Shown piece by piece: positions 26,501 to 64,000 of a DNA stretch of 64,000 nucleotides; the stretch's first letter is position 1, and each line of letters opens with the position of its first letter. The stretch spans positions 33,540,525 to 33,604,524 of the forward strand of contig CM055093.1 in assembly GCA_029204225.1 (NCBI GenBank). Reading direction: 5' to 3'. The notes beneath the pieces are model-generated. The model was given only the letters and a program-made list of their open reading frames with translations. It searched no databases and was not told where the DNA came from. Made by a program: the position numbers and the translations under genes. This stretch comes from Diphasiastrum complanatum (taxonomy: Eukaryota; Streptophyta; Lycopodiopsida; Lycopodiales; Lycopodiaceae).

Positions 26501-27823
26501 TCATGTACTCTTGTTAACATCTTTTGTCATTTTCATGCCATACAAACAAGGATGTTTAGATGTAGAACTGTGAGAGACATTATATATGCATTTCAATGTT
26601 TTCAAATCTCTTACTAAGTGCCATTCAACATTGAAGTCTCCAACTCCTGGAACATTGAGTAATCCTCCATCCACATGGTCCTTGATGATGCTAGGGTAAG
26701 ATGTCCTAGAGAATATCCATGATAATATATCATGATTATTATTTAGTACCTGTCCAAAGAATAGATCAAACTTAGTTAAATAAAAATTATTACTATCCAT
26801 TGTGTCTAATCTAATAATGAGAAAAATTACCTGAAAAGTTGCCAACCACCATATATCATTTTCGAACTGGACACTAAATTTGAGATCTCCTTGGTCCATT
26901 GTTTGTGATAGTGCACCATTCATGAGAATTATACTAATCCTCTCCATCTTCTGCCCTTTCACAATCTCTGACTCATCTAACTTAAGTACTATGATTATTT
27001 TACTATTCACCTTTTCAAAAGTTATATCATAAAATGTGACCATGTATGTTAGCAAGTGATTTAGATCAACAAAGAAGTTGTTTGATGAATTATAAGATAT
27101 TGATCTTCCATCAGTTTCAAACACCTCTTCAATATAAAATGGGGTACCAATGATCTTAAGCATACCTATGTTTAATGTATTCCTCTCTCCTAGCCTTAGA
27201 TATATACCTGCTGACTACAATCCTATCGTGTTCGATGGATGGAGAGAAGGTTAGCATCTCCCTCGATAAGGACGGGAAAAGCCTACGGGCTTTCATTTCA
27301 CCGAGGTTCTCTATCTTCAAGTGATATGACCTTGGGATAGGGACTTTTCTAGTTTGAACTTGCTTAACAACTTCTCTAATAAGTTGAAATATTGTTGCAT
27401 ATGCTTCTCTGCTAATACCTACAAAATCATAGACACCCTGGACTATAGTCCTATCTAAAAAAAATTGAATGTCCACCATCAAAGACTCTACAATTTTTCA
27501 CTTTACATTGGAACTCCTATTGTTCATCATGATACACTCAGTGGATTTGTCTGTCAATATTGAGCACAACGACATTCCAAGTGAAGCATTGTCCATAATA
27601 TTTTGAGGAGCTACTAATGCATATTTGCAAAAAACCAGATAGCTAGCAAAATATAAAACCATATGTAATTGATCAAGTTACAAAAATCAGAATATGCTTA
27701 TTTGAATGCACGAATCCTTCTATTTCGATAACCTCCTTTTGAAAGAGTTTGAATATTCTTGCAACTTTGTCGCTTTTGCTTGTTATTCCTAGCCGCCTTC
27801 TTAGCCACTTCCACATCCTTCAT
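26501..27823 (-). pseudogene. Transposase-like gene with introns (unknown family)
   Basis: Exon 1 (27,823-27,698) is very basic (KKAARNNKQKRQS..SKGGYRNRRIRAF). Exon 2 (about 27,600-27,160) includes DFVGISREAYATIFQLIREV and PSIEHDRIVVSRYISKARRE. Exon 3 ends at 26,831 and exon 4 starts at 26,749, with an 81-bp GT-AG intron. The last exon has FNVEWHLVRDLKTLKCIY and SSTSKHPCLYGMKMTKD. The pattern 'xxD.K.L......HPC(L)YC' recalls an uncharacterised eukaryotic family with a GGDWKFL..CxWC signature that I suspect is RNase H-like; that link is from memory only. Here the second Cys is Gly. A stop near 27,507 and a frameshift near 27,165 break it. Confidence 0.4.
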
Positions 27824-29713: not shown

Positions 29714-29933
29714 GTATGATTTCTTATTATTGATTTTTATGCAAACCCTACGCAACATTTACAAGCATGGGATGAGTAGTTCCTTATATATTAATATCTA
29801 TTTCTCTTCAACACGCTCAAAAAATGACATAAGTAAAAGAGACTGCATCTAATCTTAAAAGCAGACCGAGTGAACTGTTATTAAAGAAATCATTGTCAAA
29901 AACCTAACAGTAGGGACTCCAAGAAAACGCTCT

Positions 29934-30030
29934 TAGACAACATGGATATGCGTAAGATATGTAGTTTTTATGAAAAGGTTAGAATGGCACGGATCTACCC
30001 TAATACCTTGTAAAAACATTGCAGTTCTCT
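29934..30030 (+). repeat. Block shared with 38,512-38,610
   Basis: The segment from ATATGCGTAAG through AAAGGTTAGAATGGCACG to TTGTAAAAAC matches 38,522-38,594 with moderate divergence. With the matching 13-codon exons upstream, it shows that 29.6-30.2 kb and 38.2-38.7 kb are two copies of one sequence. Confidence 0.65.
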
Positions 30031-31556: not shown

Positions 31557-31945
31557 TCCATACATTTTTATCATTAGGGGATATTAGAACTCAAAATGGG
31601 CCCTTCGTCAAGATGCTATATTTGACTTCGCACGCTTTCAACGCTTATGTGTCCCAATGAATGGTGTCCATCTATGATGAACCGTAACAGTGGTTGACAG
31701 ACGGAAATTGTATTTAACTTTCCCAACCAAATTTTCATGATTTTCAAATATCCTGCTGGGCAGAACAAACAATTGTGATTGGACCACATTTACTGCTTGA
31801 ATACTTTATGATGCCCGTCTTTGTACACTCGAGGTTGATTTGACGTCAATAGTCGTAAATTGTAGTTAATAATCCTTGTAGTTTAGGAACTTCTTGTCAT
31901 TCATAGGTATATCTCTCATTCTTCATTTTTTTCTCTTATTTTGGA

Positions 31946-33084
31946 TTGTCATTAGATTGGATAACATATATAGAAGCTCTTGGAAAGGCAGGATAATGGA
32001 TTTCAAAGTATCACATGCCGGTCAATCTATCATGGAAGTTTTAGTTCAGCATGCTTATCTTCACAATGAGCTAAACATTCTAATTTGAATCCAAATAATA
32101 GAAGAAAATGCAATTGTAAATTTTCAGATTTAATTTTTGTAGAGTTAGAATTTTCTTTAAACTATATTTTTCTTGAGATATTTTTGTTGGTTTGGCAGAT
32201 TTGTATCCATCAAATTTCGTTGAATGGAAAACAGTTCAATCGATTGCAGGAATAATCGATGTCATGCATTTGGTTATTGGTATTTTACAATATAAAGGTC
32301 GTTCTCCCAAATCACTTTTAGAGTCAGGAGTTTTCTTTTATGATCACACCTATTTTCTTGATAAAATTGGTTTGGTTGGTAGATTAGAGCCATATCCTCT
32401 ACTAGATTTTTCAAGTGAGGAATGGATTTCTCCTAATGTAGCAATTTCAGAAAGTTTTCGATCTAGACTATATATTGATATTCAGAGTATATTAAAATGT
32501 AGCACTGGATCAAAGAATAACATATTAAGTTGTATCTACCATTTACTATTTTTGTTGATTTTTTTTCCAAATGCAATGTTCGGAGAACGAAAACAATGTT
32601 TATTTGTAAGGACTTGAGTGTTGAAATAATCGTCGAGTTGTTGGATGATGGTTGGGATACGAAACAAAATCAGCAAGTTGAGTGTAGAGTGTGTTACTCG
32701 TCAATGACATTTAGATATCACATTGAAAAACAAATGCTCACTTTGTTGCTGTATTATAGAAGATGGATTAAATGCAAAAATGTTTGGAAGTCACTTGATC
32801 AAGATTTTGGTGTAAACCCTCAAGAGCAACTTCAACTAATAGTGAAAATAAATGAGAAAATTCTTGCAATGGTTGAGGTCGTGAAAGATTGGTGTCTCAA
32901 TCACATTCGATCAGAACTAGACATGTTGCAATTCGATCTACCTCAGTACTATCAATTTTGGTTGAATGGTGTAAAGGTACGTTATGTCATATGAAAATGT
33001 TCTTTTTTTAGATTTCTAAGTGAATCAGTATCAAAAAATATATTAACTAAAAAAAATTATCTGGTGCAGGTAAGAGTAAGGTAG
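31946..33084 (+). pseudogene. ORF-X copy II (unknown conserved protein)
   Basis: The main exon runs 32,199 (after TTTGGCAG) to 32,976 (GT donor); a last exon at 33,070-33,084 gives VRVR-stop. A possible upstream exon covers 31,946-32,088. The protein has DLYPSNFVEWKTVQSIAGII, a VGRLEPYPLLDF segment, then the region shared with copy I. A one-base indel near 32,530 splits the main exon. I find no catalytic signature; the C-terminus ends in a conserved P..Y.FxLNG. It converges on the H3/protease gene. Not a retroelement protein I know. Confidence 0.55.
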
Positions 33085-33229
33085 GAGGAGCATATAAAAT
33101 GCAAAGAGATTGGAACATCCATTGAAATTGAAGATCCATAGATTATGAACAATGGAATTTTGTATTATGTAATACAATTTTTTGTATACATCATTTTTGA
33201 AAATATATGAACCACTTTTTCTATGAGGC

Positions 33230-33372
33230 TCTTTCATTTCTATGATCCTCATTTCCATGGTGCAGAACACAATGTAATTGCAACTGGATAATATGAGATT
33301 TCGATAACAAGATTCATTGTCTCCCATAGGAAATGCATTATCTCCATTGGAGAGATCTTGTAACAATTGAAC
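33230..33372 (-). pseudogene. Extra copy of the protease-like gene's last exon
   Basis: One minus frame reads CYKISPMEIMHFLWETMNLV..YYPVAITLCSAP, which aligns with the final exon at 33,732-33,917 (CPKVSRMEIMHFRQQTIKLV..YLVAVAECSPP) and with paralogue 1 (YTVGEVYMFRHELIF). This is a tandem exon duplication or the tail of another decayed paralogue. Confidence 0.55.
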
Positions 33373-33731
33373 TCCAGTGACCACTATAATCAGATATATC
33401 GGCTTGCCCTTGTTGATGTCTCGGATATATCGGATATATTTTTGCTCTTCATTGCCTTCGTCTGTATTGTCCTTGTTTTGGCATATTTGGATATGTTCAG
33501 AAGATGATCTGATCGAAGCTTTGCCACAACAAGGCAAGGCAGATCAAGGCTATGAAAAACTTACATGTAGGAACACCATAGAAGATGAATGAATAATAAC
33601 TTGAAATAATAATAGGAAAACAAACATGTGATAACAACCATAGAAAAATGTAAACATATTTGCATAAAATTTTTCTATACATGTGTCTCATCCACATCAA
33701 GGGATGCCAATCTATGACCTCTAAATACATG

Positions 33732-35866
33732 CTAATCTATGACCTCTAAATCCATTTCTCCAATTGGAAGTTGCTTGGGTGGAGAACACTCTGCCACTGC
33801 AACTAGATATGAATTTTTGATCACAAGCTTTATGGTCTGTTGCCTGAAGTGCATTATCTCCATTCGGGAGACCTTCGGACATTTAAACCGAAATAATGGA
33901 AACATAGTTAAATGCATTAATCAAAGATTAGATATTAGGAATATGATTAAGAAAAAAACAAAAACACAATTACATGTTATACTCGAAGATTACCTCTTCT
34001 AGACTGACAAGTCCATCTTGTAGTGCAAGCCAATTGAAAAAGAATTTGGCTTTGCATATCGTATAACAACCACAGCTCACAAAATCAACCTGCTTGGAGG
34101 ACTGCAATATTTTATATAAACGAAAATTAGTAACAAGATTTGAACATTATGTAATATCAGATCAACGTGCAGGAGCTTATAATAAAATCTACAAAGGAAA
34201 CAAGCATGCGTCAAACCGATATCCAAAAAATATTGTTTGAATAGCGGATCAGCGTGCACGATATGAAAAGAAACCAAGCAATGGCCATAAGGGCGCGTCG
34301 AACCGATATTGAAAAGATTTTACCTCTGCATCAACCATTTTCAACTTTGAGTATGCTATTGCATGTGGTACTGGAAAGAGTTCCAGTATTTTCTGTATAT
34401 GGCTCCTGGCAATTTAGTGGGTGTGTGTAATGGAGTTCATCTTTAAACAAACAGCATTACACACACCCTCATCATTGACATGGAAGGACAACACATATAA
34501 GCTCCAATAATCACTGCAATCATAAAACAATAAATTTTATGAGAATGAATGTTCATATAAAAAATTCTACTTAATAAAATCTGATAGCAATACACTTACT
34601 TTGTTATGTATGGGAGAATGAAATTGGAGTCCCCAGTCTAACGTATTAAAGCATATCATCGTGCAGACTTTTGAAGTTAGGGAATCAAAAGCTACCATGA
34701 ATTGAAGAGGAAACAAAACTACATCTATAAATAGTGGGGTCTGGAAATACTCCATCCAGTATTGAATTGCCCCCTGTCCTACATTGTCCCCTAGCATTTT
34801 ATTCCTACTTTCTAATTCACTTGTATTTAGATAGGGGAAGACCAGCATTGGTCTTTGGCATCCTAAAACTGTGGAGAGGACCTAAAGCTTGAAGATAAGT
34901 GTTTAACAATTGTTCATACTGTACATACTGAGGAGTATTTACAAAGGCAAGTGCAGGGGGTGAAGGAAGCAACACTGATAAGCCACAAAAAGAATTGTCA
35001 TTCAAAATTGATTCGACCTTTACATTTACAAAATCATCTAAATCTATTTATGAAACAGGAGGGGGGGAACTAATATTTGTGAGGATAGGAGGAGACCTAG
35101 ATTTTGAAAGAGGAAGATATTTATTAGGAGATGAAGATTTAGGAGGAGAAGATGGAAATTGAGTTCTAGGAGAAGAAGATGGAGATTGAGTTCTAGGAGT
35201 AGAAGATGGAGATTGAGTTCTAGGAGGAAAAGAAAGAGACTTAGGAGGAAATTTGGATGCGGTTAGAATCTCATGCAGAGTAGTTGGCTTGGAAAAATCC
35301 ATCGCTTTATTTGGAGGGTCATGAGACCTCTTCTTCTTTGAAACAATCCCGTTCTGTACTCGAAAAACAAGCCGGAAAGGTTGAGATTGCTTTCGCTTTC
35401 TTTTCTTTGAATCTTGTTTTGGAGGAGAGGAAGGAGCTGGTCTAAAGTACAATGCAAACTTGTCATATGTGTCCCTTAGCCTGAACACAATGTTAAAATC
35501 CTTGGGCATAATGGTCACCCTCTTGGCATGGACAGCTGCAACAACAGTATCTGAAAAAAAATTTACATGAAAATCCTCATATGTTGTGTGCAAGGCCTCA
35601 ATTGTTGTTACAGTCCATCTCACATATTCAGATAGACTTCTTGTAACCTATCTGATTGATCTTTGTATATGAGCTTTCAGAATCATAAGATTATTTGTCT
35701 TTTGTAGCTTCCAAATATCCTTCTGCCAGGCAGGGTCTCTTAGTCTGCCCCTAGGCCTAGGAGGAGGTGGTGGTGGACGAGGTGATGGTGGTGGATTTCT
35801 CTGACCTCCTCCTGAAATTGGGATTCCACCAGGGTGGATTCGTGCTGTTTGCTTTGTCCGCGCCAT
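33732..35866 (-). pseudogene. Histone H3-like domain joined to a ULP1/C48-like protease
   Basis: From ATG 35,866 the tail MARTKQTAR is identical to histone H3 residues 1-9 (K4 kept, K9 replaced by Ile). After a Pro-rich insert the H3 fold is followed closely: QKDIWKLQKTNNLMIL, IQRSIR, TIEALHTTYEDF, then AVHAKRVTIMPKD at codons 111-123, within one residue of its place in real H3. A Lys-rich and SPRTQSP-repeat linker follows. Next comes a protease-like region: LNTSELESRNKMLGDN..IQYWMEYF, SPIHNK | DYWSLYVLSFHV (34,513-34,324) | SKQVDFVSCGCYTI (34,101-33,994), and a last exon to 33,732. GT-AG introns fit. Breaks: TAG at codon 73, TAA near 35,048, a frameshift near 34,830, a stop in exon 2. The usual catalytic His before Trp is Tyr. 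Confidence 0.65.
34153..34311. repeat. Two inverted-repeat units of the GATATCGGTTCAACGCGC family
   Basis: Unit 1: left arm AATATCAGATCAACGTGCA (34,153), right arm GCATGCGTCAAACCGATATC (34,203). Unit 2: left arm GCGGATCAGCGTGCAC (34,244), right arm GGGCGCGTCGAACCGATATT (34,291). Arms are 48-50 bp apart, start to start. They lie in an intron of the H3/protease gene. Confidence 0.8.
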
Positions 35867-35877
35867 TGCTATCCACT

Positions 35878-37605
35878 ATTGGATCAGCACGCGAACAAAG
35901 AGAACTCAAGATCAGAAGTCAGGTTGGGCGCGTTGAACCAATATTTGACCTTCAACCAAACCGATAGTTGAGTGCAGATGGGCACGCGCGAGTAAAAGTG
36001 GAATGTAGGTAGGTAGCTTCGCATGCGCTGAATCGATACTGCATGGAAGTAGAGAATGATAAGAAGTTTACGAAAAAAAAACTAAGCATTGTCCATCTGC
36101 ATATGTGGTGGTATGGAATTACGAGGCAAAGATTACGGCGATGATTACATCAAGATATTCAGATGCTTGTCAATCAAATCCATCGATCATCAATTTGATT
36201 AGTCAATATGGCTAATGAGCACCACTTTAATCTCTACAAACATATCATCACATCTACAATTAATTCTACAAAAGTATGGTCACATCTACAATTAATATTC
36301 GATATTGACAAAATTATGTTATAAATTCAATCATTATAATTTCCAAAAATTTCAATAGCCTTTTTTTTATATCCAATCCTTATAATTCTGAACAACTCTA
36401 ACTGCCAGTATTTCATCCTATAACGAATCGACGTGCATATACTGCATCTGTACACCAGAGAGGCTTTTCTCGTGCATTGAACCAATATTGGAAGATAATA
36501 TGAATGATCAAAGCTTGATTCGATAGATTCTTGTTAGCTTTGGACAGAATGAGGAGTCTATTGAATCAAGCTTTGATCATGCATACTACAGTCCAATAAT
36601 TTCCAAAAGTTTCAAAAATCTTTTTTTTCTTGCAATAGCGATTCGACATGCACAGTCCGAGTGAAAAACCATTGTCTCTTCCAAAGGCACATTGATCCGA
36701 TATCTGAGTTCACTGAACATTTATTGAAATGCATATGAATCATCAAATTTTGATTCAGCAACATATTTTTAGTTTTGAATGTATGAGGAACCTCCCGAAT
36801 CAAGCTTTGATGATTCATAATGGATTCCAATTGTGAATCAACGTGCATAGTCCAAGTTGAAAACACTCTTTTTTGGGACGGGTGCGCTGATTCCGGAGTA
36901 TCTCATCAACGCATGCCTATTTGATATGTTCTTGAGAAGCATTTGTCCTCTCGCATGGAATTGCTAGCGGCTTTTTCAAAATGCTCCGCCTTATGAAAAT
37001 GTTCTGAATGACCAACTATCTAAAAAGAAAAAAAAAAAACTCGTCTTTACGATGCTTAAATAGGGCAAGAGACGTTTTTCAATGACCTCCATTTAATATT
37101 TGTTTAATGATGATTCGGAGAGGCTAGCAATAGACTATTTAATGTACTCAGGCCCAAGTAAAAATTTTAGGGTCAGGGCTAATGATAATTCGTAGAATCT
37201 AGTGAGAGACTATTTGATCTATTCCGGCGGAGGTACAAATTTGTCTCTCTTTGACTAGTAGATAAATATAGGTTGTGCTCCTCAACTCATTATTTGACAG
37301 ATGTATGGTTGTGATCAACACAAATAGGCTATAAATATGGGTGCCACTTTCCTTATTTCGATTCCGTAAACTTTTATTCTGAACTCCCTCGCTATTTTGT
37401 TTTATTTCTTTCTCGTGATATTAAATCGACGCGCGCCTTCACATACTATGCACGGTCGGATTCATTCAGGCGCGCTGAAGCGATGTCACCTCTTCTGACT
37501 TATGCTCTCAGACGATTTCATTCTCGTCAAAACGATATCGATTCAACGCGCGCACTATTGAACATTCCTCCACCGAAATCATTCAGTCGCGTTGAACTGA
37601 TATCA
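35878..37605. repeat. Seven inverted-repeat units of the GATATCGGTTCAACGCGC family
   Basis: Left and right arm starts: 35,878/35,926; 35,959/36,021; 36,424/36,471; 36,637/36,686; 36,831/36,879; 37,417/37,468; 37,534/37,586. Arms are about 18-20 bp, reverse-complementary, and mostly 47-52 bp apart, giving units of 66-72 bp. Between them lie further hairpins of another type (36,504-36,575 and 36,727-36,825; arms ATGATCAAAGCTTGATTC and complement). The array sits between the divergent H3/protease gene (-) and the small ORF at 37,629 (+). Confidence 0.85.
37330..37337 (+). promoter_or_regulatory. TATA box before the 37,629 ORF
   Basis: TATAAATA, followed by two of the best-conserved inverted-repeat units (37,417 and 37,534) and then the ATG at 37,629. 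Confidence 0.5.
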
Positions 37606-37628
37606 GGTTCAATACGGCTAGTTCCTCC

Positions 37629-37955
37629 ATGTCCTCAAATAACAAACTTTTGGATTTTTTGAATGCCAATGACATTCCATCTGAGAAATTAGAGTACTTT
37701 TCCAGTCTTTTTTTTGCTCCCTTCGATATCGATAAGCTAGTTTATGATAATCGTTATAATTTAATTTCTCTTCATGATAATTTTTCTCAAATTATTTGTA
37801 CTCCTATTCAAGATATAGATAGTTTCTGTTTCGTTCATTTTCAGGACCTTGTGCATTTCCAACCATCCTCTAAGCATAAACACAATAAAAAGTACTCTAA
37901 CCTACATGACCATTTCAAAAGAAATATATATTGTGGTATCTATGTCGCCTTCTAA
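37629..37955 (+). CDS. Hypothetical 108-aa protein
   Basis: An intact frame, MSSNNKLLDFLNANDIPSEK onward, rich in Phe, Asp and Asn, ending YCGIYVAF. No domain, signal peptide or membrane segment is seen. It has a TATA box 290 bp upstream and lies inside the inverted-repeat region, which favours a real gene over chance, but I cannot identify it. Confidence 0.4.
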   Translation: MSSNNKLLDFLNANDIPSEKLEYFSSLFFAPFDIDKLVYDNRYNLISLHDNFSQIICTPIQDIDSFCFVHFQDLVHFQPSSKHKHNKKYSNLHDHFKRNIYCGIYVAF

Positions 37956-38281: not shown

Positions 38282-38511
38282 GTATGATTTCTCGCAACAA
38301 AATTTGGGTTGTGTGCATAAGCAACTTACGCTCAAAGGAAAGAGGTTTTTGGTTCTACGTATATTTTTCTCTATGGTTAGAAAGAAGACATTAGTTGCTT
38401 AAACATGTCTCTTCCTACCCCCTGCCATCTACCATTTCGTAACCAATTTAACACTCTGATAATAATGACTTAAATTATATCCATTGGAAAGGTTGTTCAT
38501 TAAAATTATCT

Positions 38512-38610
38512 TAGACATCACGAATATGCGTAAGTTAAACGGTTCTTACAAAAGGATTAGAATGGCACGAATTTATCCTAATAATTTGTAAAAACCACGA
38601 ACACCACACC
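38512..38610 (+). repeat. Block shared with 29,934-30,030
   Basis: See the partner block. The order exon, about 230 bp, shared block is kept in both copies. Confidence 0.6.
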
Positions 38611-39526: not shown

Positions 39527-40484
39527 TGTTGATAATGTGTGAGGTGTGATATGCTTTGCATGCCACTGAAAGAGTGTGAATCAGGATCGCAGTCATGAAG
39601 CTTTTGCAAAGGAACCATGACTCTCTTGCCCTCGGATGGAGTTCAGATGCGATCGCTGGACACTGCTAGCTGAATCACTCCTACAGTCCTCCAGAGTGTA
39701 GTCAGGCACTGCTGATCTACGTTTATAAAATTAGTGCAGCATTCAACATAGTTTCAGCCAAGGTGCAGAATTCAAATGAACAAGAAAACTTAGACACACG
39801 AATAAACAGCAGACGCATTTGCATTCGAGATCAGACACAACAAGAAAAATCATCTATATTGATCTTTCTCTAATTTCTTCAAGCACTGCATGCAAATGCA
39901 CGCAGTGCGTTGGTGTGGGAGAAACACAGTTCTCTCACGAGCAATCGTCTCGCTTTACTAGCGGACAGTTGGATCTATAGATCCTAGACAGAATTGTCTT
40001 CGCACGTAGGCGGACATGTATTCCAGTAAGTATAGTCGCTCTATGTAAATCTAAGATTAGAGTGATTAAGCATCTACAACTAATCAGGAAAATACAAGAG
40101 TGGCAGATTAGCCACGACCTAAAATGTATTTGCTGATGTCATGTCATCAGATCAGATATCTGTACTTTTGGGTACTTGCACGATCTCGCTGGTACTCTCT
40201 GGAGCGTGGAGGGCAGGAGAAGGTTTCGTTTTGGTCGTTTGTCTTCTCTCGTACTGGATCACAAAAGATTCTCATTCGTGAATCTTTTCGAGTTTGCAAA
40301 TCGTTTGTCTTTGTCTGCTTCGACTTTGGAGTTCGCAAACCGTCACCTTCATTTCCATTGACTTTTGAGTTCGCGAACCATTTCGTGCTTCGTGTCTCCT
40401 GACTTTTGTGTTCGCGAACATCTTTGTCAGGTTGAGGGCTAAAAGCTAGCAAGGCTTTGTAGTTAGAAACATTTCGTTTGTTCA
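39527..40484 (-). repeat. Cop-2 3' LTR (LTR-A)
   Basis: TGTTGATAATG to TTTGTTCA. Pairs with 52,259-53,326. It lacks about 85 bp present there and has one fewer 39-bp repeat. The target duplication is GCCCG (39,522-39,526) against GTCCG (53,327-53,331). The minus-strand PPT (TTTGAGAGAGAGC) abuts at 40,485. Confidence 0.9.
40280..40425. repeat. 39-bp repeats in LTR-A (four units)
   Basis: Units begin with a GAGTTCGCGAACC-like word at about 40,289, 40,328, 40,366 and 40,408. The core TTCGCGAA is palindromic. As 39 bp is 13 codons, the minus frame encodes a 13-residue repeat (FANSKVNGNEGD-like). Confidence 0.8.
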
Positions 40485-43560: not shown

Positions 43561-44422
43561 TGATAAATTTTACAGTTTTTAGGACAATAATGATTGTACT
43601 TTACAATCATAGAGAGTTATTGGTTGCTTAATCAATGAATCTATCAAGTTCTACACATTAGATCTTGATCTAGATTCACTACACTTGGATTTAAGCAAGA
43701 GCAATGGATCAACACATCATTTTTTAGTGAGAGCGGCTTCACACGTGTGGAGTACTGTCCACTGTACGGACTGAACCTGAAACAACAAGTACAATGATAC
43801 TAGATAGCAATCATGCATAAAAATCACAAGACAAATGACTAGAAATCTCACAAAAGTGTAGAGTGCAAAAGTCTCATCCATTTTCTTAGCAAAATGATGA
43901 TCCTTTTATGGATCAAGTACATCCATGAGTCTGGTACAGTCCAGCAGGCCTTCACACGTGTGAAGAGTGCCACATCACTCATATCTATCCATTTGATCCA
44001 TCCTTGATCCTTATCCAATAGTTGACCTTCTAGAATATGACTAAAATCCAAAAAGCTAGTCTCCTAGAATATAGGAATATTCCCTACAAAATAGGATCTA
44101 AGGAAAATGGTCAACTCTTATCTTCTAGTACTCTATACACACATGTGAACATCCACTTGCCATGTGGGAGCATTTACTCATGCACATGCAAGGAAAAGCT
44201 AATTTGTAGGTGACTAGTCAACTTGACTAAAAACTAGTCATTTCATGTTCACACTAACTAGAATGATACAAAATCAATTTGGATATATACAAACATGAAA
44301 AGTACATCCTTTCACACATGGGAACATGCTCCACACGTGTGAAATCATATCATCAACATATTCTAATGTTTGATCAATATTTACATGAACCAATGTCAAG
44401 TGAGAAGTGACAATTTTCAACA
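43561..44422 (-). repeat. Cop-3 3' LTR
   Basis: TGATAAAT to TTTCAACA, 862 bp. Compared line by line with 48,342-49,203 I found no difference. It carries G-box-like palindromes: TTCACACGTGTGG (43,738), TTCACACGTGTGAA (43,951), CACACATGTGAA (44,138), TTCACACATGGGAA (44,311) and CCACACGTGTGAAA (44,331). The minus-strand PPT (GTGAGGAGGAG) adjoins at 44,423-44,433. Confidence 0.95.
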
Positions 44423-44435
44423 CTCCTCCTCACTT

Positions 44436-44888
44436 CTAACTTGGCAAATCTAGTGTACATCTATCTACAATTCCAAGAGCATATCTTAACTTAAAAAATG
44501 GATCTTTGGACAATGGTTTGGTTAAGATATCAGCTATGCATTCGGATGATGGTACATGATGTAGTTGCACTTCCTTGGATTGTACCTTCTCCCTCACAAA
44601 GTGGTGAGCTATCTCAATATGCTTTGTTCTAGCATGGAAGATAGGATTTGAAGCAATTTGTTGAGAAGCTTGATTGTCACAAAATATGTAAGGGATCTCC
44701 TCGGCCTCTAGCACATGTAGTTCCATCAAGAGTCTTCTTAGCCATAAGAGCTCTTTGGTTGTTGAAGTCAATGCCTTGTACTCGGCTTCACAAGAAGATA
44801 GTGAGATTGTATCTTGCTTTTTGGAAAGCCAAGATATCACTCCTCCACAAAGAAATGTTGCAAATGCACTAATGGACTTCCTATCCAT
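44436..44888 (-). CDS. Cop-3 RNase H
   Basis: An intact RNase H reading frame of 150 codons: SAFATFLCGGVISWLSKKQD, SLSSCEAEYKALTSTTKELL, PYIFCDNQASQQIASNPIFH, HIEIAHHFVREKVQSKEV, SECIADILTKPLSKDPFFKL. It overlaps the end of the main frame, shifted by one register because of the RT deletion. The normal start of RNase H (Tyr-Thr-Asp region) is missing. Confidence 0.9.
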   Translation of the reverse strand: MDRKSISAFATFLCGGVISWLSKKQDTISLSSCEAEYKALTSTTKELLWLRRLLMELHVLEAEEIPYIFCDNQASQQIASNPIFHARTKHIEIAHHFVREKVQSKEVQLHHVPSSECIADILTKPLSKDPFFKLRYALGIVDRCTLDLPS

Positions 44889-47746
44889 CTTGTCACCTTT
44901 TGCTCCTCACCAATCTTGATGAAGCCCTCGGGTTGCATCATGTAGATTTCCTCTTCTAAGAAGCCATTCAAGAAGGCATTTGTCACATCCATTTGGTAGA
45001 GATCCCATTTGAACAAAGTAGCAATGCAAATGATTAATCTAATAGTTACAAGCTTAGCTACAGGTGCAAATGTTTCTTCATAATCCAATCCTTTTATTTG
45101 AAGAAATCCCTTAGCAACAAGCCTAGCTTTGTATTTACTAATAGATCCATCTTGATTGTACTTAATTCTATAAATCCACTTACATGCAAGTGGTTTCTTT
45201 CCTCTTGGAAGATTTACAAGATTCCAAGTATGATTTTCTTCTAATGCATCATACTCTACTTGCATTGCATCTCTCCAAACTTTAGATTTACATGCTTCTT
45301 CAAAAGATGATGGTTCTTCAATCAATGTAGCTAAAAAAGAGTAAGAGGTAGAAGATGTAGAGCCTTCCTTTTGCTTTCCCTTGTCCACATAGGTAAGCCT
45401 TGAGGGCTCGGCCTTGCTCCTTGATGATCTTCTTGGCCCCTTTTGACTTGGATCCAAATCTCCATCCTCGGGTTTGTCATGATCCTCCTCGGGTTTGTCA
45501 AGATCCTCCTCGGATTTGTCAAGATCTTCAATGCACAATGGGTTAGATCCATTTGACAAGCTCTTAGCAAATTGTGACTCATCAAAAAGTACATCCTTGC
45601 TTACCTTTACTTTCTTGGATGTAGGATCATATATCCTATATCCCTTGCTATTTTCTCCATAGCCAACAAAGATTCCTTTGAAGGAGGTAGCATCTTCTTT
45701 CCTTCTAGTCTCCAAAGGAATGTGTACATAACAAGTACATCCAAAGATCTTAAAATATTTTACATTGGGTTTCTTATCAAACAAGGCTTGATAAGGTGAG
45801 ATCCCATCTATAGCACTACTAGGAAGTCTATTACATAAATAATTAGCACATGTTATGGCTTCTCCCCAAAATGAGATGGGAAGTGATGCATCAAGCCTCA
45901 AGGACTTTGCACACTCACATAGACTCCTATTTTTCCTCTCGGCCACCCCATTTTGTTGAGGGGTGTAGGAACAAGTGTATTGTAACTTAATACCATTGAT
46001 CTCACAAAAGTCTTTCATTTTATTGGAGGTGTACTCTCCTCCATTATCACATCTTAGTGCTTTGATAGAAGTACTAAGTTGTTTCTCTACTAGAGACTTG
46101 AACTTAATGAAAGCTTCATAAACAAGATTTTTCTTTGATAGTAACTCAATCCATGTGAATCTAGTACAATCATCTATAAAAGTTACATACATCAAGGCAC
46201 CTCCATTACTTGCATGTGAAAAACTATGTACATCAGAATGTATGAGATCCAAGGGAGAGAGAGATCTTGATGAAGATTTCTTGTAAGAAGATTTGTGTGA
46301 CTTTGCAAGGCCACATGCCTCACACATTTTTCCACACTTCTTGAAAGCTCTTGGTAGGCCGAGAGCTAGTTCCTTGCTTGCCATTGACTCCATAGATTGA
46401 AGATTAGGATGGCCTAATCTCTTATGCCAAAGCTCCACTTGAGTTAGCTCCTCCCTAGCCAAGTTCACACTTTCACTTGCAACATTAGCATCCAACTTGA
46501 AAAGTCTACCTTGCTTAATGCCACTAGCTATGCACTTATCATTTTTCAAGATGGAACAAACTCCATTCTTGAAATGTACATCTAGTCCATTGTCCATTAA
46601 TTGTCCTACACTAAGCAAGTTTCTTGAAATGGTAGGAACATACAAAACATTATCTAGATCTATCCTTTTAGATGTGCCTAAACAAAGAGGTATAGATCCT
46701 ATGCCATCTATCTTGCATGCTTGATCACTAGCAGTGTATATTGACTTCTTAGAGTCATTACAAGATAGAAGAGTAGAAAAATAATGCTTGTTAAAGGACA
46801 TGTGGGAACTAGCCCCACTATCTATCCACCATGTGTCTTGACTTGAAGTTGGTGTAGATGCAACCATTAAGGATGTGTTGAATCCATCCTCATATTCTTC
46901 CTCTTGAGCAATGTTCCCTTGATCTCCTTTGGCTTGTTGATTCTTCTTCAAGTAGCATTCTGAGGCAAAGTGTCCTTTCTTTCCACAAAAGAAACACTTT
47001 AGTTTTGCCTTGTTCTTCACTTTGCCTTTGGAGGTAGATCCTCCATTCTTCATCTCGGCCTCCTTGCCTTGATTTTTCTTGAATGGATTTTGCTTTTTCT
47101 TGCCTTTAGATGTAAAGTTAGCTTTCTCCTCTCCTCCATTAAGTGACATGCTATCCATTCTTGTCTTGAGGTGTAGAAGCCTACTCTCCTCGGCCACAAG
47201 AACATTGTGCAACTTTTCAATGGATGGAAGAGAGTCTTGAATGGCAAATGATTGGACTAAGTTGGTAAACTCATCACTTAGACCATTCAAAATGATTTGT
47301 ACTAGTTCTTGATCTTGGATCTTCTCTCCTATTGCACTTAACTCCTTGTTAAGAGATTTGATCCTAAGAACATACTCTTGTCCACTCTCTCCACTTCCTT
47401 TCATGCTTTGGAAAACTTGATTTCTTAGCATGAGGATTCTTGAAGTATTGTTGGATTCATAAATGCTCTTTAATGAATCCCAAGCCTCTTTGGATGAGGT
47501 ACAAGAAGACACCTCTTTCAAGAGGTCATTGCATACATTTAACTTTATGCAATGTAGAGCTAATCTTGCTCTCTTCTTGTATTTGGCTTGTTCTTGGGGA
47601 GTTTGAGGCTCTTCCTCTACTCCTTGAACTATGTCATATAGATCATGGATCACTAGGAGTGATTCCATTCTCACTTTCCAAATGGAATAATTTGTGGAAG
47701 TGAGTCTCTCACTTGATTCCATCAAATATCCACCCATGGATGACAT
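44837..47746 (-). CDS. Cop-3 gag-pol polyprotein, RT deleted
   Basis: An open frame of 969 codons. Gag (1-240, UBN2 type), CCHC knuckle C251-C254-H259-C264, protease IDSGASSH (D309), pre-integrase LWHKRLGHPN (about 439), integrase core D505, D567, E603 (HSD; RCDNGGEY; NGVAERKNRS), then RT from DAMQVEYDALEENHTWNLVN (826) to TNAFLNGFLEEEIYMMQPEG (941). At about residue 950 the sequence jumps to RNase H in another frame, so the RT palm with YVDD is gone. All other domains are intact, with no stop. It can only move using RT from another copy. Confidence 0.95.
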   Translation of the reverse strand: MSSMGGYLMESSERLTSTNYSIWKVRMESLLVIHDLYDIVQGVEEEPQTPQEQAKYKKRARLALHCIKLNVCNDLLKEVSSCTSSKEAWDSLKSIYESNNTSRILMLRNQVFQSMKGSGESGQEYVLRIKSLNKELSAIGEKIQDQELVQIILNGLSDEFTNLVQSFAIQDSLPSIEKLHNVLVAEESRLLHLKTRMDSMSLNGGEEKANFTSKGKKKQNPFKKNQGKEAEMKNGGSTSKGKVKNKAKLKCFFCGKKGHFASECYLKKNQQAKGDQGNIAQEEEYEDGFNTSLMVASTPTSSQDTWWIDSGASSHMSFNKHYFSTLLSCNDSKKSIYTASDQACKIDGIGSIPLCLGTSKRIDLDNVLYVPTISRNLLSVGQLMDNGLDVHFKNGVCSILKNDKCIASGIKQGRLFKLDANVASESVNLAREELTQVELWHKRLGHPNLQSMESMASKELALGLPRAFKKCGKMCEACGLAKSHKSSYKKSSSRSLSPLDLIHSDVHSFSHASNGGALMYVTFIDDCTRFTWIELLSKKNLVYEAFIKFKSLVEKQLSTSIKALRCDNGGEYTSNKMKDFCEINGIKLQYTCSYTPQQNGVAERKNRSLCECAKSLRLDASLPISFWGEAITCANYLCNRLPSSAIDGISPYQALFDKKPNVKYFKIFGCTCYVHIPLETRRKEDATSFKGIFVGYGENSKGYRIYDPTSKKVKVSKDVLFDESQFAKSLSNGSNPLCIEDLDKSEEDLDKPEEDHDKPEDGDLDPSQKGPRRSSRSKAEPSRLTYVDKGKQKEGSTSSTSYSFLATLIEEPSSFEEACKSKVWRDAMQVEYDALEENHTWNLVNLPRGKKPLACKWIYRIKYNQDGSISKYKARLVAKGFLQIKGLDYEETFAPVAKLVTIRLIICIATLFKWDLYQMDVTNAFLNGFLEEEIYMMQPEGFIKIGEEQKVTRWIGSPLVHLQHFFVEE

Positions 47747-48165
47747 TTTAGAATGAATGCTCTTTTAAAAATCACAAAGATTTTTGAATTTTAAAAGATC
47801 TATGAAGTGGCATAAAGCTTACTAGAATGCCTATAGGCTTGTCTCTATCAAACTAACACACAAGCTTGAATGATACTCAAAGATCTTACCAAAAATTTCT
47901 AGCTTTCACTCTCACAAAAAAAATTGCTTTACACTTTTCTTAGAGATTTCACTTCAACTAAGGATCTGAACAAATCAGCCTCTTAGATCTGATCTTAGAC
48001 TCTAAAAAGAAATGCTTCAATGATCCAAAACACTATTTGGTCATAGGCATTAGTTAGAATGAATCTAGATCAATACTATGCTTCAAAAAGCACCAAAAAT
48101 GAACTAGTATTGTGATTTTGGGACCAAAAAACACAAAGTAACTTGAATTGAAAGTTGCTGTACGG

Positions 48166-48181
48166 TTTCACACGTGTGAAA
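48166..48181. promoter_or_regulatory. CACACGTGTG palindrome in Cop-3 leader
   Basis: TTTCACACGTGTGAAA, a perfect 16-bp palindrome in the leader between primer site and gag, of the same family as the LTR copies. The CACGTG core is a typical bHLH/bZIP binding site. Confidence 0.6.
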
Positions 48182-48329
48182 AGTACATACACAGCCTCCA
48201 AGTCGTTTTGATCCAAATGATTACAAGCTATCACTCTAGAAGAACTCGCCCTCACTAGTATTGGCCAAAAAACAAATTTTGCCAATGATCTTTACAAGAT
48301 TTATGATTCAATGATCACTCTCTTACTTA

Positions 48330-48341
48330 GCTCTGATACCA
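48330..48341 (-). other. Cop-3 primer binding site (tRNA-iMet)
   Basis: TGGTATCAGAGC on the minus strand, directly next to the 5' LTR. Confidence 0.95.
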
Positions 48342-49203
48342 TGATAAATTTTACAGTTTTTAGGACAATAATGATTGTACTTTACAATCATAGAGAGTTA
48401 TTGGTTGCTTAATCAATGAATCTATCAAGTTCTACACATTAGATCTTGATCTAGATTCACTACACTTGGATTTAAGCAAGAGCAATGGATCAACACATCA
48501 TTTTTTAGTGAGAGCGGCTTCACACGTGTGGAGTACTGTCCACTGTACGGACTGAACCTGAAACAACAAGTACAATGATACTAGATAGCAATCATGCATA
48601 AAAATCACAAGACAAATGACTAGAAATCTCACAAAAGTGTAGAGTGCAAAAGTCTCATCCATTTTCTTAGCAAAATGATGATCCTTTTATGGATCAAGTA
48701 CATCCATGAGTCTGGTACAGTCCAGCAGGCCTTCACACGTGTGAAGAGTGCCACATCACTCATATCTATCCATTTGATCCATCCTTGATCCTTATCCAAT
48801 AGTTGACCTTCTAGAATATGACTAAAATCCAAAAAGCTAGTCTCCTAGAATATAGGAATATTCCCTACAAAATAGGATCTAAGGAAAATGGTCAACTCTT
48901 ATCTTCTAGTACTCTATACACACATGTGAACATCCACTTGCCATGTGGGAGCATTTACTCATGCACATGCAAGGAAAAGCTAATTTGTAGGTGACTAGTC
49001 AACTTGACTAAAAACTAGTCATTTCATGTTCACACTAACTAGAATGATACAAAATCAATTTGGATATATACAAACATGAAAAGTACATCCTTTCACACAT
49101 GGGAACATGCTCCACACGTGTGAAATCATATCATCAACATATTCTAATGTTTGATCAATATTTACATGAACCAATGTCAAGTGAGAAGTGACAATTTTCA
49201 ACA
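48342..49203 (-). repeat. Cop-3 5' LTR
   Basis: 862 bp; offset 4,781 from the 3' LTR at every point checked, without substitution or indel. Contains the same CACACGTGTG series. Confidence 0.95.
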
Positions 49204-52258: not shown

Positions 52259-53326
52259 TGTTGATAATGTGTGAGGTGTGATATGTTTTGCATGCCACTG
52301 AAAGATGTGAATCAGGATCGCAGTCACGAAGCTTTCGCAAAGGAACCACGACTCTCTTGCCCTCGGATGGAGTTCAGATGCGATCACTGGACACTGCCAG
52401 TTGAATCACTCCTACAGTCTTGTAGAGTGTAGTCAGGCACTGCTGATCTACGTTTATAAAATTAGTGCAGCATTCAACATAGTTTCAACCAAGGTGCGGA
52501 ATTCAAATGAATAAGAAAACTTAGACACATGAATAAACAGTAGACGCATTTGTATTCGAGATCAGACGCAACAAGAAAAATCATCTATATTGACCTTTCT
52601 CTGATTTCTTCAAGCACTGCATGCAAATCCAAGCAGTGCGTTGGCGTAGGAGAAACACAAACACTCTCACAAGCAATCTTCTCGCTTTACTAGCGGACAG
52701 TTGGATCTACAAATCCTAGACAAAATTGTCTTCGCATGCAGGCGGACATGTATTCTATATTTTGTCTTGATTGCTTGCTTGCATTAGACTACTACGTGTA
52801 CTCTATTTTTCTATATGTCAAGTAACATCCAATAAGTATAGTCGCTCTATGTAGATCTAAGATTAGAGTGATTTAGCATCTACAACTAATCAGGAAAATA
52901 CAAGAGTGGCAGATTAGTCATGCCATCAGATCATATATCTGTACTTTTGGGTACTTGCATGATCTTGCTGGTACTCTCTAGAGCGTGGAGGGTAGGAGAA
53001 GGTTTTGTTTTGGTCATTTGCCTTCTCTCGTATTGGACCGCAAAAGATTCTCGTGCTAGACCGCAAAAGATTCTCATTTGTGAACCTTTTCGAGTTTGCG
53101 AACCATTCGTCTTCATTTGCTTCAACTTTCGAGTTCGCAAACCGTTCATCTTCGTTTCCTTTGACTTTCGAGTTTGCGAACCGTTCATCTTCGTTTCCTT
53201 TTACTTTCGAGTTCGTGAAACTTTTTGTGCTTCGTGTCTCCTGACTTTCGTGTTCGCGAACATCTTCGTCAGACTGAGGGCTGAAAGCTAGCAAGGCTTT
53301 GTAATTAGAAACATTTCATTTTTTCA
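52259..53326 (-). repeat. Cop-2 5' LTR (LTR-B)
   Basis: 1,068 bp. It contains a segment at about 52,752-52,837 and a 21-bp duplication (GACCGCAAAAGATTCTCRT, 53,037/53,060) absent from LTR-A. Overall identity to LTR-A is high but clearly below that of the Cop-3 pair. Confidence 0.9.
53080..53265. repeat. 39-bp repeats in LTR-B (five units)
   Basis: Anchors CGAGTTTGCG/CGAGTTCGCA at 53,091, 53,130, 53,169 and 53,208, and CGTGTTCGCG at 53,249: exact 39-bp period, then 41. The minus frame gives a 13-residue repeat (FANSKVKGNEDER). Confidence 0.88.
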
Positions 53327-63492: not shown

Positions 63493-63510
63493 ATTAAGGG
63501 GGGGAGAAGG
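63493..63510 (+). other. Gyp-I polypurine tract
   Basis: ATTAAGGGGGGGAGAAGG, just before the LTR start at 63,511; the primer for plus-strand cDNA synthesis. Confidence 0.8.
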
Positions 63511-64000
63511 TTATGTCCATGTCCTGTACAAGGGAATCGGAATAATTCCTGATGTGGATAGCCGGTCACTCCAGTTGTATGTGATTATTAGTTATGCTAC
63601 GTCATTTTGGACATGGTCGTATTAAATAATTAATAATCATATGAGGGACCAAACCTATAATTGGACATAGGAGCACATGCATGGTGAAGACTGCTTTAAT
63701 GCAAGAATAGGAGGTCAATAGCTCAATTTAGTTTGCATGGGAATCTTAATGAGAATACTCTCTCTCTCTCTCTTGAGGAGAATAAGTCTAGTGGAAACTC
63801 GCCTATCCTCCTATTGTGAATTGTGATTCTTGAGCCAGTTTCTCCTCTCCTCTCTTGTGTTCTTCACTGTGGCTCGGGGGTGGATTGGTTAGGGTAATGA
63901 CTAGCCTCTCCATATTGTGGTTGGGTGGTTCATGCTCCATAAGTGTCCTTTTGGTTTGCGTGTGATTGGAATCTTGAAGATCTTCACTTGGTGGTTCTTA
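63511..64000 (+). repeat. Gyp-I 3' LTR, cut by window end
   Basis: Starts TTATGTCCATG after the PPT. The first 146 bp match 593-448 inverted. A short CT run lies at about 63,758-63,773. The end lies outside the window. Confidence 0.75.

Follow-up and report, generated by a model that had tools for sequence, protein, structure and literature searches.

The locus described here raises the question of whether a core histone and a SUMO protease-like domain are coded by one gene, and of what such a protein would do for the DNA that carries it. The window, the 64 kb stretch that was analysed, was found to hold a broken four-exon gene (gene C) on the minus strand from 35866 to 33732, which codes for an H3 fold followed by a divergent C48/ULP1-like domain. 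An earlier note, made from the letters alone, had proposed one broken gene at 33732..35866. These coordinates are correct, and the stop codon of gene C lies at 33734–33732. Relatives of this gene were searched for in the genome to which the window belongs, which comprises 1.74 Gb in 5176 contigs.

The H3-like Domain

The minus-strand reading frame from 35866 starts with MARTKQTAR, continues through a proline-rich stretch, and then enters a histone fold that ends in HAKRVTIMPKDFNIVFRLRD. The H3-like domain lies within exon 1 at 35866–35471 (minus strand). The frame of 272 residues passes an in-frame TAG at 35650–35648 and is terminated by a TAA at 35050–35048; for comparison with Pfam and the PDB it was read with X at the TAG. 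The profile check that the earlier note proposed for Pfam Histone (PF00125) gave 60.4 bits (E-value of 2.6e-16) over residues 36–131, well above the cut-off of 26.4 bits. The top PDB chain was histone H3, with 64.1 bits over query residues 1–132. These two matches reject a chance likeness to H3, and because of them the two motifs recognized earlier, MARTKQTAR and HAKRVTIMPKD, can be described as the ends of a complete H3 fold, which is more than had been claimed. The HAKRVTIMPKD part of the fold holds residues of the H3–H3′ contact and of the DNA-binding loop.

By its best match, its H3 start, and its HAKRVTIMPKD sequence, the domain of gene C is of the H3 type. It has in common with core H3 and its variants the ARTKQT start, a fold of equal length, and an identical HAKRVTIMPKD. 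It differs from core H3 in the proline-rich tail, which in the window copy is without lysine between K4 and the fold, in a long C-terminal extension, and in being coded by a repeat family. CENH3 has an insertion in loop 1 relative to H3. The window domain is ungapped across loop 1 in the alignment with the PDB H3 chain, and the identification as CENH3 is rejected by the absence of this insertion. Gene C resembles CENH3 in coding for a diverged H3 with an altered tail, whereas it retains the ARTKQT start, is without the loop-1 insertion, and is fused to a protease-like domain.

A search of 5.8 billion proteins with the 272-residue frame, admitting lengths of 0.55–1.75 times the query (about 150–476 residues), returned 77 of 1405 candidates at an E-value of 0.001. 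The best matches were proteins with two ordinary H3 copies. There is no close relative among the matches listed, since none of their identities exceeds 42%. A full-length H3-ULP fusion would escape this search because of its length window. Two unnamed proteins, P0041 (425 residues) and P0044 (381 residues), begin with ARTKQTAR and have their H3 fold at the C-terminal end, after a long inserted region.

Exons of Gene C

Exon 1 (34600..35866, minus strand), as delimited by the reading frame, the Pfam and PDB matches, and the relatives, codes for the H3-like domain, a basic Pro/Ser-rich linker, and the first ULP-like half, and is followed by a donor GT at 34599–34598. It is damaged by the TAG and TAA given above and by one or more frame shifts further on. 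The frame goes on beyond the TAA, and in relatives the sequence there is still part of exon 1. The remaining exons are also on the minus strand. Exon 2 (34324..34513) reads DYWSLYVL...KMNSITHTH, with Tyr in place of the protease His and an in-frame TAA at 34416–34414. Exon 3 (33994..34101) reads SSKQVDFVSCG and contains the protease Gln and Cys. Exon 4 (33735..33872) codes for the C-terminal region and leads to the stop codon. A diverged second copy of exon 4 was observed at 33356–33258 (minus strand), and such a duplicate is also found in copies L036, L037, and L039.

The three introns of gene C are of the GT-AG type, and the same exons were recovered in other copies. In three copies elsewhere in the genome (L010, L022, and L027), one open frame spans the linker into the ULP core, in frame with the preceding H3 part. 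In a fourth, L037, a single open frame of 405 codons covers both the H3 domain and the first half of the ULP-like domain. Because these relatives read through both parts, the fusion of H3 with the ULP-like domain is real; the proposal of one broken gene is upheld, and two neighbouring genes are rejected. The window copy itself cannot act because of its stops, its frame shifts, and the Tyr at the catalytic His place.

The ULP1/C48-like Domain

C48 proteases have the catalytic residues His, Asp, Gln, and Cys in that order. The domain of gene C is like the ULP1/SENP proteases in the order HW ... Q.....CG, and the nearest PDB chain was SENP8, with an E-value of 0.16. It differs from them in scoring under the Pfam cut-off and in having Asn at the usual Asp place. 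The catalytic Cys is kept in all 21 aligned rows, the His in 21 of 24, and the Gln in 14 of 18; Tyr replaces the His in three rows, namely those of the window, of L004, which is the same place, and of L005. At the Asp position, Asn is found in 21 of the 27 aligned rows and Ser in 3, and the 3 rows with Asp are out-of-frame second pieces. Long (Thr-His)n stretches, the length of which varies among copies, were noticed in exon 2 of L018, L019, and L020, beside the Asn at the Asp place.

The earlier note had staked its protease claim on a Peptidase_C48 (PF02902) match to the downstream exons, and in the window pieces neither this family nor any PDB chain was matched. The joined ULP part of the window also gave no match at an E-value of 0.01 (846 candidates, 5.8 billion proteins). 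The window copy thus fails the test that the earlier note had set, and the support for C48 comes from two better-kept copies: the joined exons of L022 and L029 match Peptidase_C48 as their sole Pfam family, with 16.2 bits (E-value of 0.0099) and 13.7 bits (E-value of 0.054), respectively, under the cut-off of 20.7. One motif was misread. The IHN of the earlier pattern comes from a shifted frame and is rejected as a catalytic motif; relatives read ...TPILVLPYIT... ahead of DHWSLYVL. When PF02902 was run against the whole genome (520 candidates, 150 scored), three places were found, which look like ordinary host ULP genes, and no copy of the gene C family was among them. In a profile comparison with a host SENP8-like protein, 30 columns around the Cys were aligned with a probability of 4.5%. 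Judged by its residues and profile scores, the domain is C48-like and short of an established member of C48. The protease may be weak or dead, since its C48 scores are under the cut-off, the PF02902 scan misses the family, and Asn stands at the Asp place.

Copies in the Genome and Ends of the Element

At least 143 matches to the H3 frame were found in the genome, where 142 of 8837 first-look candidates were scored. They are present on all of the contigs C1–C24 as well as on small contigs, and their identities to the frame are 68–100%, except for one fragment at 62%. Stops occur in the aligned part of 126 of the 143 matches, and the fragment is among the 17 without a stop. The nearest other copy among the matches scored, L005, is 96% identical and has the same TAG.

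A mobile element had been guessed from the window, and the copies and paired ends bear this out. The members of the family have lengths of about 9.0–10.2 kb and terminal inverted repeats of about 35 bp. A complete copy of 9244 bp on C10 interrupts an LTR-type element that is found without the insertion on C1; the ends of the 9244-bp copy are inverted repeats (CATTAGGG...) that are 83% alike across 35 bp. Genome searches with the two ends, in which 40 of 1761 and 40 of 1372 candidates were scored, found paired ends on C10 (9244 bp), C13, C4 (9032 bp), and C1 (10240 bp). The pair on C13 is a duplicate of that on C10 because the flanks are the same. None of the three distinct loci that have both ends showed a target-site duplication; a decayed one of 3 bp is possible at C10. 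In 10 further copies examined for ends at the expected distance, the 5′ end was present in 3, the 3′ end in 2, and both in none, which argues that many copies are rearranged or cut. A retro-copied H3 gene is rejected by the introns and by the element ends.

In the window, DNA matches to other copies extend over 31572..37747. The 3′ terminal inverted repeat (CATTAGGGGATATTAG...) was located at 31572..31605 by end comparison with other copies, and no 5′ end of the element was detected in the window. The window element belongs to a DNA-transposon-like family with members of about 9–10 kb, of which it is a dead copy without the 5′ part. Like the DNA transposons with terminal inverted repeats (CACTA, MULE, and others), the family has inverted ends, a high copy number, and several genes; unlike them, it shows no target-site duplication, and its candidate transposase falls in no Pfam family.

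Other repeats were observed in the window. Direct repeats at 39575–39874 and 52306–52605, which are 94% alike, are probably the LTRs of a long element bordering the missing 5′ part of the H3-ULP element. Two identical 300-bp repeats flank a 975-codon open frame at 43561–48641, probably a young Copia-type element. A 94-bp direct repeat at 29924–30017 and 38502–38595 (plus strand), 78% alike, codes for ...RMARIYPN.L, and inverted arms of 142 bp at 453–594 and 63510–63651, 62.9 kb apart, are 92% complementary.

Other Genes of the Element

In the C10 copy, read in the direction of gene C, the open frames suggest the order A (plus), B (minus), a dyad stretch, C (plus, H3-ULP), and D (minus). Gene A has 32 relatives at E-values of 0.01 or lower (3059 candidates), all unnamed and without Pfam domains, from entries with the source tags lgn, ena, and, once, ncbi. 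They share the blocks K-L-D-E, WH.AGDLKTLKC, and PC.YC. Gene A itself falls in no Pfam family, and we infer that it codes for the transposase. Fragments of a gene A relative (...EWHLVRDLKTLKCIYNVSH...) were noticed in the window at 27635–26412 (minus strand), outside the element at 31572–37747. An open frame at 37630..37955 (plus strand), divergent from gene C, is perhaps the start of gene B; the assignment is weak, and the frame has one short antisense match to another copy (22 residues, E-value of 1.8e-5). The gene D region (31954..32994, plus strand) is convergent with gene C, and the DNA on this side of the element is 87–91% identical to other copies. The pieces of genes B and D that were scanned gave no Pfam family above the cut-off, and neither a MULE transposase nor a VANC-like family was above the cut-off among the scanned pieces of genes A, B, and D.

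Paired Inverted Motifs

A 16-bp motif, TATCGRWTCRRCGYGC, forms convergent pairs in the element, with 51 bp from the start of one motif to the start of the other. Each dyad consists of the motif, a 35-bp spacer, and the inverted motif, and the dyads are located in the promoter region and in intron 2 of gene C. The window has nine dyads, which fall within 34155–37602. Dyads 1 and 2 (34155..34221 and 34242..34308) are in intron 2, dyad 3 (35877..35943) is just upstream of the ATG of gene C, and dyad 4 (35972..36038) has one weak half. Dyads 5–9 were found at 36421..36487, 36636..36702, 36831..36897, 37419..37485, and 37536..37602, respectively. The leave-one-out scores of the dyads were 21.6–45.5, compared to 4.9 or less elsewhere in the 64 kb. 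The best pair in 200 dinucleotide shuffles averaged 4.8, and one shuffle reached 23.0, above the two weakest dyads.

With a mean identity of 31%, the spacers are mutually unlike, and a recent origin of the dyads by duplication of one 67-bp sequence is therefore rejected. All 30 related loci, among them the window itself (L004) and several near-identical pairs of loci, have one pair or more at the spacing of 51. Across these loci, 121 scored pairs have the spacing of 51, and any other spacing from 16 to 119 has 17 or fewer.

Outside CpG, the difference between copies (29 loci) was 0.155 for the half-sites, 0.146 for other upstream sequence, 0.182 for the near flanks, and 0.211 for the spacers. 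Conservation between copies is no higher in the half-sites than in other upstream sequence, and 2 of 6 dyads fail to beat their own spacers, one of these not being at the spacing of 51 in the reference copy. It could be imagined that the element makes a sequence-directed nucleosome of its own. Each dyad of 67 bp, with its inverted half-sites about five helical turns apart, would then seat a tetrasome in which two H3-ULP chimeras are combined with two host H4, and each copy of the element would have a promoter particle that could not be methylated on H3K9 or H3K27 and that would carry two SUMO proteases. The lack of extra conservation in the half-sites makes this less likely, and we regard it as very improbable.

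Selection and Tail Residues

Median pairwise dN/dS values for the tail, the H3 fold, the region before the ULP core, and the ULP core were 0.51, 0.37, 0.53, and 0.26, respectively, for loci that were selected by score, that include several near-duplicates, and whose decayed copies mix selection with drift. The loci were the 30 with the highest scores, or 27 in the case of the ULP parts. Of the 435 and 351 possible pairs, 420, 425, 342, and 340 were used for the medians, after those with few sites or little synonymous change had been left out. The corresponding pooled pN/pS values were 0.55, 0.41, 0.57, and 0.43. In the tail, K4 is present in all 28 loci that have this residue. The loss of K9 seen in the window extends to all 30 loci, with Ile in 13, Gly in 9, and Val in 8.

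A Second H3-like Family

A second H3-like domain, with a Pfam score of 81.5 bits, was found in L006 at 582–175 (minus strand; G000:C8:38821609-38821995), about 0.94 kb from the first H3 gene of that locus and divergent to it. The same divergent pairing occurs at C8:39127160, beside L007. This second family has at least 150 matches (150 of 6628 candidates scored). If the query's own locus and one copy identical to it are set aside, the identities are 67–78%. Many of these matches are without stops, and their open frames reach 471 codons. In a tree of H3 folds, the second family falls between the first family and ordinary H3; the placement is weak, and the tree includes a badly cut row (can_P0007).

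Proposed Role and Alternatives

By analogy, the nearest working parallel to H3-ULP is VANC of the VANDAL elements. According to the excerpted text of PMC5735166, VANC of the Arabidopsis VANDAL elements binds to motifs repeated in the non-coding DNA of the element and causes loss of methylation. Forms of VANC that carry ULP1 exist, and the function of the ULP1 domain there is not known, as stated in the excerpt of PMC13317346. The family described here and these Arabidopsis MULEs, including the KIU (Kaonashi) forms, as far as the excerpts describe them, both have short motifs repeated in their own non-coding DNA and code for a protein that, in some forms in the case of VANC, contains a ULP1 domain. 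The two differ in that the descriptions of VANC in the excerpts of PMC5735166 and PMC13317346 contain no histone domain, and in that the VANDAL motifs, in the same partial sources, are of 8–9 bp in tandem repeats, whereas those reported here are inverted pairs of 16 bp with a constant 51-bp offset. Gene A also differs from MULEs, being without a recognized MULE domain.

We propose, with a probability of about one half, that H3-ULP is the element's own anti-silencing factor, that gene A codes for the transposase, and that the dyads serve in recruitment. The H3 part would enter nucleosomes by pairing with host H4, which is conceivable because the H3 N-terminus and HAKRVTIMPKD are kept. Nucleosomes with H3-ULP would carry no methylation of H3K9 or H3K27, which is not possible on this protein because the tail lysines after K4 are lost. 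The attached protease would strip SUMO from nearby silencing factors, and the dyads would recruit H3-ULP, or an element-coded partner, to the promoter of the element.

The gene could instead have been captured by chance and be spread by the transposase as mere cargo that does nothing for the element. According to the excerpt of PMC13317346, genes captured by plant transposons usually decay, and the stops in 126 of the 143 matches fit such a history, as do dyads that are no better conserved than other upstream sequence. However, dN/dS is below 1 on both domains, the fused frame and the exon limits are common to many copies, and a second, diverged H3-like family has a similar copy number, which makes a single accident less likely. 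On balance, we consider this explanation rather unlikely.

That the H3 part acts as a decoy of the free H3 tail, which would bind the readers or writers of unmodified H3 without ever entering nucleosomes, would suit a tail that matches H3 in its first residues only and is otherwise proline-rich, but a full histone fold has been retained that a tail mimic does not need, and we judge the decoy to be improbable. Viral histones and adenain-like proteases are known, and the several genes, the inverted ends, and the lack of a target-site duplication at 3 of 3 loci could be those of an endogenized DNA virus or virus-like element, with the H3 and the C48/adenain-like protease as viral genes. The three GT-AG introns of gene C and a length of only 9–10 kb oppose this origin, and no capsid, polymerase, or packaging family was found among the pieces scanned with Pfam, which cover part of the frames. 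A viral source is thus quite improbable.

Literature searches aimed at a transposon-coded histone, or at a high-copy mobile family with an H3 fold, found neither among the works that they listed. Even without the mechanism, the family described here is mobile, has a high copy number, and codes for an H3 fold, a combination not found in those listings, and a second H3-like family is present in the same genome. If H3-ULP is indeed an anti-silencing factor, then a selfish element would be using a core histone as a weapon, in the form of a histone unable to bear silencing marks that is joined to a SUMO protease. It would allow a direct test of the joint action of H3K9 methylation and SUMO in the control of transposons. 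In the arms race of transposons with their host genomes, it would represent a new route, and it would also be a possible tool for the targeted loss of silencing.
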